Positions 13,581 to 15,502 of a stretch of 40,460 nucleotides of DNA are shown one piece after another. The position numbers and the translations under genes are program-made. The notes under the pieces were generated by a model, which saw only the letters and a program-made list of their open reading frames with translations, was not told where the DNA came from and did no database searches. Position 1 is the first letter of the stretch, and each line of letters opens with the position of its first letter. The DNA is from Microcaldota archaeon. Lineage in GTDB: Archaea > Micrarchaeota > Micrarchaeia > Micrarchaeales > CABMGC01. The stretch spans positions 1 through 40,460 of the forward strand of contig JAJZKP010000007.1 of assembly GCA_021804105.1 (NCBI GenBank), in the 5' to 3' direction.

Positions 13581-13608
13581 CACGTATTGTGTAAAACTGC
13601 ACATAATG

Positions 13609-13617
13609 TATATATAA
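13609..13617 (+). promoter_or_regulatory. TATA box upstream of candidate ncRNA
   Basis: TATATATAA in intergenic DNA, centre about 27 nt before the base of the predicted three-way junction. Confidence 0.5.
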
Positions 13618-13639
13618 CCAAGTTCAGATAATACTTGAG

Positions 13640-13760
13640 ATGAGAGTGATGACTAGCCAACACGAGCATACGGTAATCATATGCCGTACTGCAATACATG
13701 CCCAAAGGCAATACAGTTAGTCTCACTTGTATCAAATCCTCCTATCGGCCTTGATATACT
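13640..13760 (+). ncRNA. Candidate structured ncRNA or riboswitch-like leader (three-way junction plus extra hairpin)
   Basis: P1 GTGA(t)GACTAGC 13646-13657 / GTTAGTCTCAC 13716-13726; P2 GCATACGG 13666-13673 / CCGTA(c)TGC 13684-13692; P3 TGCC-CAAA-GGCA 13699-13710; P4 TGTATCAA 13728-13735 / TTGATATA 13751-13758. Confidence 0.5.
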
Positions 13761-13828
13761 GTTGCATCATGAACCATTGTTATGTGTGCAGCGCAGCAAC
13801 TTCGTATCGTTAATACCTGGTGATAGCC

Positions 13829-14356
13829 ATGGCTAAGATAACAACAAAGATCAAGGTACGGCAGATGAAGGATAACGATATCGCACCTATAGCGAGGCTC
13901 TACATCCGCGCTTTTTCCGAGCCTCCTTGGAATGAGAGATGGGCAATTAAGGATGTAGTTAAAGACATAACATACGCCAGGTCGCAGGAGCACCCAATAA
14001 TGCTTGTAGCAGTATCTGGAGACGCTCTGGTAGGATTCACGTGGGGCTATTCTCTTCGGCCTCGTGATTTTCCTTTCCTGGAAGGCCAGCTCTCTGCAAG
14101 GAGCATGTATGTCGACGAGATAGCTGTCTGCAATGAATTCAGGAAACAGGGGCTTGGCACCCTACTGTGCACCAACCTGATAAGTATGGCACGAGATATT
14201 GGCTTTGAAGAAGTAATTCTTCGCACAGATCTGAGGAACAATTCATCCATGAAGCTGTTCTCTTCATTGGGGTTTCGCGAGCTCGGGGTATCTGACCCGC
14301 AATATTCTTCAAGGATATACCTGAGAAAGAGCCTTTCCGGCCTGCTGAGGGAATAA
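13829..14356 (+). CDS. GNAT-family N-acetyltransferase
   Basis: MYVDEIAVCNEFRKQGLGTLLCTNLI, VILRTDLRNNSSMKLFSSLGFREL. Confidence 0.9.
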   Translation: MAKITTKIKVRQMKDNDIAPIARLYIRAFSEPPWNERWAIKDVVKDITYARSQEHPIMLVAVSGDALVGFTWGYSLRPRDFPFLEGQLSARSMYVDEIAVCNEFRKQGLGTLLCTNLISMARDIGFEEVILRTDLRNNSSMKLFSSLGFRELGVSDPQYSSRIYLRKSLSGLLRE

Positions 14357-14392
14357 TATAAACCTGGCAAGAGCCATAAAACACGTGTATTT

Positions 14393-15502
14393 ATGAACGA
14401 TTCAAGAGTAACAAAGTTGACAAAAGACCTTATAGATATAAGATCTGAAAGCGCAGAGGACGGTGAAGAAGAGGTATCAAAGTACATAAGTGCATACCTG
14501 AAGGAGATCGGGATAAAATCAAAAACAATAAGCTTCGGTAAGCACAGATCTAACGTGGTTGCGGAAATAGGCGAGGGGGAGGGCCTGATGCTTAATGGCC
14601 ATACAGATACCGTGCCAATCGGAGATCCATCTAAATGGAAGTGCGGTACGTCTGCTCGTATGGCGAACGGCAGAATCTATGGCAGGGGTGCCTCAGACAT
14701 GAAAGGCGGCATAGCTGCAATACTAGCAGCCTTGGGAACCGCAAGGCTTAGGGAACCGAAACGTCGCCTCCTGCTTGCATTTGTTGGAGACGAAGAGCGA
14801 AACCTGGAGGGCTCAAAGTGCTTGCTCTCTAGACACAAAAGCCTGTTTAATGGTGTACGTTGGGGTGTGATTGCTGAACCTACAGACCTGCTCATATGCA
14901 TTGCACAAAAAGGCATAGTGGAGTTCTCTATAACTGTAGCAGGTAAAGCTGCCCATTCGTCGCAACCATGGCTGGGCAGAAACGCAATTACTGATACAGC
15001 TAAAGCTATTGATGCCCTTAGCATGCTTCAGAGCCAATTCAAGGTCCATGATCACGTGCTTGGCACTGGCACGATCAATATCGGCAGGGTTTCCGGCGGA
15101 GTTGCTGCAAATGTAGTTCCAGAGAAGTGCAATCTTGAAGCGGACAGGCGCCTAGTTCCTGGAGAGAACGTACAGACGGCAATAAATGAGATTAAGGTAG
15201 CCCTGGAGCGTGTCAGAATCAGCTATAAGATGCATGTAACCCTCTCGCAGATGCCATATTCGTTGCCACGAAATTCATTCATTGCAAGATACCTGAAATC
15301 ACTCACTGGACGCGCATTTGCAGGAGTTTATGGATACACCGAAGCGCGACTTTACAAGGATATGGCCAATATCGATTGCGCTGTCTTTGGTCCAGGAACT
15401 ACGAAAGGCATACACGGCCCAAACGAATCTGTAAGGGTATCAGACCTTGAGAAAGGAACCATGTATTATTCACGTATAATAAACCAATGGCTCGCAGGAT
15501 GA
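14393..15502 (+). CDS. M20-family metallopeptidase (ArgE/DapE/carboxypeptidase G2-like)
   Basis: LMLNGHTDTVPIGDPSKW, GRGASDMKGGIAAILAAL, AFVGDEERNLEGSK, GPGTTKGIHGPNESV. Confidence 0.92.
   Translation: MNDSRVTKLTKDLIDIRSESAEDGEEEVSKYISAYLKEIGIKSKTISFGKHRSNVVAEIGEGEGLMLNGHTDTVPIGDPSKWKCGTSARMANGRIYGRGASDMKGGIAAILAALGTARLREPKRRLLLAFVGDEERNLEGSKCLLSRHKSLFNGVRWGVIAEPTDLLICIAQKGIVEFSITVAGKAAHSSQPWLGRNAITDTAKAIDALSMLQSQFKVHDHVLGTGTINIGRVSGGVAANVVPEKCNLEADRRLVPGENVQTAINEIKVALERVRISYKMHVTLSQMPYSLPRNSFIARYLKSLTGRAFAGVYGYTEARLYKDMANIDCAVFGPGTTKGIHGPNESVRVSDLEKGTMYYSRIINQWLAG

Follow-up and report, generated by a model that had tools for sequence, protein, structure and literature searches.

A candidate class of amino-acid-specific −1 frameshift switches in archaeal leaders, with a putative histidine version ahead of a GNAT–M20 operon

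Introduction

Programmed −1 frameshifting, leader-peptide attenuation and the autoregulation of RF2 are already known. RF2 (prfB) is controlled by an autoregulatory +1 frameshift at a stop codon. T-box riboswitches read the charging of one tRNA via a specifier that matches the downstream pathway. In archaea, one case of −1 frameshifting has been proven (PMC8211752). Frameshifting at pheL has been described as incidental, and no starvation-specific trans-frame product is known (PMC5009743).

We analyzed a 40,460-nucleotide stretch of archaeal DNA, called the window here. Positions 13609–13836 are probably the 5′ leader of a GNAT–M20 operon, acting as a histidine-responsive −1 frameshift switch. 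From the sequences of its relatives, we propose that archaea have amino-acid-specific −1 frameshift switches, in which an interchangeable codon after C_CAA, together with a stem-loop, senses tRNA charging. We assign this reading a probability of roughly 0.7; such leaders would sense His, Trp, Pro, Thr, Ser, Gly and Tyr/Phe tRNA, and the window would hold the histidine version with its regulator lost. Our search of open-licence papers returned no account of such frameshift leaders, an absence that is no proof of novelty.

Results

All oriented features of the leader lie on the forward strand. The TATA box TATATATAA (13609–13617), which the sequence-only reading had placed correctly, predicts a transcript start near 13640; TATA boxes precede the leaders of relatives as well. 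Adjoining it is an imperfect inverted repeat, TGTGTAAAACTGCACA (13588–13603). The same reading had seen no long ORF and thereby missed two overlapping ones. The frame-0 ORF, MTSQHEHTVIICRTAIHAQRQYS (13649–13720), starts at ATG 13649, comprises 23 codons plus TAG, and encodes a peptide beginning MTSQHEH. It contains the proposed slip site C_CAA (13657–13660), read as CAA in frame 0 and as CCA in the −1 frame, and directly after it the codons CAC GAG CAT (His-Glu-His; 13661–13669), the proposed regulatory or ‘hungry’ codons. The −1 frame ORF (13657–13836) has 59 codons plus TAA (13834–13836) and overlaps the start of the next gene, ATG 13829. With 0.047 stops per codon, a run of 59 open codons has a probability of about 6%, so this frame could be open by chance; it also includes an ATG of its own, at 13681. 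The next gene encodes a GNAT acetyltransferase (13829–14356; Pfam Acetyltransf_1, 1.6e-13) and is followed in the operon by an M20 peptidase/deacylase gene (14393–15502; Pfam Peptidase_M20, 1.6e-28). Pairs of GNAT and M20 deacylase genes recur behind His leaders (L255, L261, L077, L079 and 13829–15502 in the window) and once behind a Phe leader (L263). They perhaps serve amino-acid salvage.

A blastn search with the whole leader gave largely chance matches, plus the first homologs. These first DNA matches were to the 5′ end of the ORF (genomes G047, G054 and G022), and a GNAT homolog lies ~480 bp downstream of the G022 copy. Further copies came from a search with the pattern MxxQHEH. Three loci (L076, L085 and L086) matched the DNA pattern, lacked the leader context and were rejected. 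Most copies have a second gene that overlaps the short ORF in the −1 frame and encodes a protein of 80–100 aa. Pfam assigned no family to this product. It is predicted to be a MarR-like winged helix (wHTH; pLDDT 89), and the nearest solved folds are MarR-type (Foldseek E ~0.01); its profile had no matches among PDB sequences. Profile and collection searches located the wHTH family in Micrarchaeota, Aenigmatarchaeota, Bathyarchaeota, Thermococci, Nitrososphaeria, Geothermarchaeota and others. Widening the search from the order to the phylum brought in no additional genomes. One contig titled Aquificota (QMPS01000117.1) carries a typical Bathyarchaeota-type leader with wHTH and is probably mis-binned. 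At ten loci (L176, L177, L191, L194, L196, L202, L210, L225, L238 and L245), all behind Tyr/Phe-coded leaders, the wHTH is fused to the N-terminal half of a transketolase, and the C-terminal half is the next gene.

A CTGYCC motif was found near the TATA box in 47 of 93 relatives, compared with 1.9 in shuffles. Directly 5′ of the TATA box, relatives such as L183, L197 and L201 show the inverted repeat GGGCAG...CTGCCCA, which is likely to be the operator of the winged-helix protein. The wHTH product and the conserved repeat near the TATA box together suggest autoregulation. For the window copy we infer a link, in that TGTGTAAAACTGCACA is possibly a degenerate form of the relatives’ operator-like CCTGYCCA repeat. 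GTGATG...CAACAC was also considered as a DNA operator. It was rejected because its right half varies (CAATAT, CAATGG, CAAACA), unlike the CTGYCC repeat, which is kept.

A winged-helix core was looked for in the −1 frame of the window and was absent; the frame has no recognisable domain. The lack of this core, and the presence of a single such leader in the window's genome, would be expected if the class were real and the window copy a decayed relic whose leader and fold survive without function now that the wHTH is lost, with GNAT made from its own start. Against this rather unlikely but still credible account, the SD-start region, MTSQHEH, C_CAA, the stem-loop and an open −1 frame whose end falls exactly on the GNAT start have all been kept, and L077 and L079 show the same leader ahead of GNAT and M20 genes. 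The MxSQHEH start of the frame-0 ORF is conserved in L077, L078, L079, L080 and L081, and the −1 frames of L077, L078, L079 and L081 also end at or adjoining the next gene. Translational coupling is suggested by the overlap between the end of the window's −1 frame and the GNAT start.

Comparison among relatives established that the −1 frame is coding. Of 100 non-redundant loci, 94 were scored, with a start 5, 8 or 11 nt 5′ of an in-frame CC codon; the remaining six, with a start 17, 23 or 26 nt 5′ of the CC codon in the same phase, were inspected by eye. At all loci, the start codon is in frame 0 and the wHTH in the −1 frame. From CCA to the core, the wHTH frame of the 94 loci has no stops in 1,366 codons, where 64 were expected, and the other frames have 43 and 86. 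The ratio of synonymous to non-synonymous changes among single-difference codons is 200:129 in the −1 frame versus 54:200 and 38:189 in the others, counted over locus pairs that are not independent. In 43 of the 94 loci, the stretch between 60 nt upstream and the core holds no ATG, GTG or TTG in the wHTH frame, and an in-frame start is present ≤45 nt upstream of CCA in 15. Since the choice of start for the 94 loci required the −1 phase, a frame-blind Shine–Dalgarno test is the fairer one; it favoured the −1 phase in 72 of the 87 loci with a clear match and another phase in 15. In the −1 frame, TAG may stand immediately 5′ of CCA, as it does in the window, which indicates that this frame is unread before CCA. 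Across the class, the −1 frame is thus conserved as protein, whereas that of the window is open but domainless. A conserved Asp in the wHTH frame was considered but dropped, as Y, N and H (NAT codons) occur at this residue besides the prevailing D; because these codons lie over the ATG, it is the ATG itself that is kept.

The P codon is CCA in 87 of the 94 loci. The site C_CAA does not match the slippery heptamer X XXY YYZ. It possibly permits single-tRNA re-pairing at codon positions 1 and 3, but not tandem slippage.

The start codons also bear on leader-peptide attenuation without a frameshift. Under that model, frame 0 would be a separate regulatory ORF, a ribosome stalled at the regulatory codons would remodel the stem-loop, and synthesis of the wHTH (or GNAT) would begin separately, either from a non-AUG codon close to CCA or from the gene's own start. 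Regulatory codons and a stem-loop fit this explanation equally well, and the GNAT gene does carry its own SD and ATG start. The codon after CCA is ATG in 7 of the 94 loci and often ATA or ATT, so that a start is conceivable in some loci; however, it is ACA, no known start, in 25. The frame relation moreover stays −1 despite start-to-CCA distances of 5, 8, 11, 17, 23 and 26 nt, and the coding signal of the −1 frame sets in at CCA itself. We therefore regard attenuation as unlikely and favour the frameshift.

The segment 13646–13726 has a predicted MFE of −26.9 kcal mol−1, compared with a shuffled mean of −14.7 (z −4.2; 0 of 200 shuffles as stable); this fold is a pick of the 40-kb window, and 3 of 882 GC-matched 81-mers are equally stable. 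For the wider segment 13636–13770, z was −3.07. The prediction reproduced the closed three-way junction described by the sequence-only reading, with one bulged U in the outer helix P1 (13646–13657 paired with 13716–13726) and a CAAA loop in P3 (UGCC-CAAA-GGCA), and it is more stable than shuffled controls. Two details changed. P2 (13666–13692), given as 8 bp, has 10 bp with one bulge, and the hairpin adjoining P1 is present but has 7 rather than 8 bp. P2 is the proposed frameshift stimulator and begins 5 nt 3′ of CCAA.

Conservation was borne out in part: a stem-loop at the P2 position recurs across the 94 loci, but the three-way junction does not. P1-like pairing is no commoner in relatives (0.336) than in controls (0.316), and P1 and the junction are specific to the window copy. 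A sliding fold test centred on CCA (n=94), using dinucleotide shuffles in which codons were not preserved, located extra stability immediately 3′ of CCA (mean z −0.97 to −1.05, SE 0.14). The best stems begin mostly 5–12 nt 3′ of CCAA, compared with the 5–9 nt usual for a stimulatory structure. With regard to attenuator-type hairpins, one localized stem-loop stands out alone in the leaders. The test showed one further stability peak upstream, over the repeat adjoining the TATA box. Pairing in the helix reaches 98% across 17 Bathyarchaeota-type leaders, and one pair only is changed on both sides. As this covariation is weak, the argument for the stem-loop is drawn from its position instead.

A standalone structured ncRNA or a metabolite riboswitch, as first suggested, is very improbable despite the stable predicted fold, since relatives translate this region, P1 is unconserved, the stem after the slip site alone recurs, and no Rfam family, T-box included, matched. 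What recurs together is a start codon, amino-acid-specific codons, C_CAA, a spacer, a stem-loop and an open −1 frame. The idea of a riboswitch-like leader of the acetyltransferase was roughly right as regards a structured leader, but a ligand-binding riboswitch is unsupported. The description as an undescribed RNA element was also roughly right.

The match between codon and pathway was likewise established by comparison. GNAT and M20 are no dedicated histidine genes, and the window leader lies outside the codon–gene count. Elsewhere, the frame-0 codon after CAA corresponds to the amino acid of the downstream enzyme in 22 of 23 loci, where 3.4 were expected. By distinct gene classes, the match is 11 of 12, against 1.5 expected; this is the safer figure because the random draws treat loci as independent. 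In the exploratory set, Trp leaders precede TrpB-like genes (L114, L148, L157). His leaders precede HisG (L071, L116) and HisRS (L088, L090, L100, L152), and Pro leaders precede ProB (L106), ProC (L200) and ProRS (L146, L242). Gly, Ser and Thr leaders stand before GlyRS (L095), SerRS (L158) and ThrRS (L094), respectively. The sole mismatch is a Phe leader before TyrRS (L232).

Predictions for longer downstream regions, fixed before annotation, were right in 6 of 6 cases in which one of the first four genes was a dedicated one (Thr–ThrRS, L246; Trp–TrpRS, L247; Trp–TrpB, L265; Pro–ProRS, L254; His–HisRS, L256 and L259); they were blind for genes and not for loci, as the leaders had been seen earlier and L246 and L254 are related to L094 and L146. 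The remaining predicted loci have downstream genes of unknown specificity and are outside this count. All 11 transketolase genes checked are preceded by Tyr/Phe leaders, a pairing that would fit a role in supplying aromatic amino acids. Some leaders have two or three tandem Q-[Y/W/F/H] units (L109 with QY, QH and QW; L173 with QY, QW and QF; L188, L189 and L191), as if they sensed several amino acids in turn.

Discussion

In the mechanism that we propose for the window copy, which we presume to be working, initiation would occur at ATG 13649 and the ribosome would read Met-Thr-Ser-Gln. When charged tRNA-His is plentiful, frame 0 would continue (QHEH...) to termination at 13720. When it is scarce, presumably in starvation, the ribosome would pause with tRNA-Gln on CAA and the A site empty, and the stem-loop at 13666–13692 would favour a one-base backward slip of the tRNA onto CCA. 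After this putative −1 slip, the frame would be read to 13836, ending on the GNAT start, and translation of GNAT would be coupled to the slip. For the majority of relatives, what the −1 frame encodes is instead a winged-helix protein or a fusion of winged helix and transketolase; the winged-helix protein probably regulates the operon to which it belongs. The choice between making this regulator and making the enzyme itself would then lie with the switch.

If true, this would give archaea a general tRNA-charging sensor, a counterpart of attenuators and T-boxes, and would be a productive, physiological use of hungry-codon frameshifting. The sensed amino acid would be set by one codon, which allows gene-by-gene testable predictions. 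Roles are also suggested for linked genes of unknown function, for example the GNAT–M20 pairs. Ordinary gene callers would miss or misplace the starts of such genes.

Programmed −1 frameshifting, as in dnaX, viral gag-pol and Saccharolobus solfataricus fucA1, resembles these leaders in its −1 overlapping frames, a conserved slip tetranucleotide, a stem-loop 5–12 nt downstream and an SD-like sequence upstream. The leaders differ in using C_CAA, 2 to 9 codons from the start, and in the amino-acid-specific codon that follows. The usual −1 product shares its predicted fold with MarR-type winged-helix regulators but has no Pfam family and is sometimes fused to transketolase. In starved E. coli, a P-site tRNA likewise slips when the A-site codon lacks its tRNA; there, hungry-codon frameshifting is an error, unlike the use proposed for the archaeal leaders. 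The trpL, hisL and pheL attenuators and the T-boxes also read tRNA charging through pathway-matched codons or a specifier, whereas the output of the archaeal leader would be a change of reading frame, and a T-box was not found. With prfB, the leaders share the logic that shortage of the factor decoding the next codon leads to a frameshift and thereby to control of the matching gene. In contrast to prfB, the archaeal frameshift would be −1, would take place at sense codons, and would serve at least seven amino acids.
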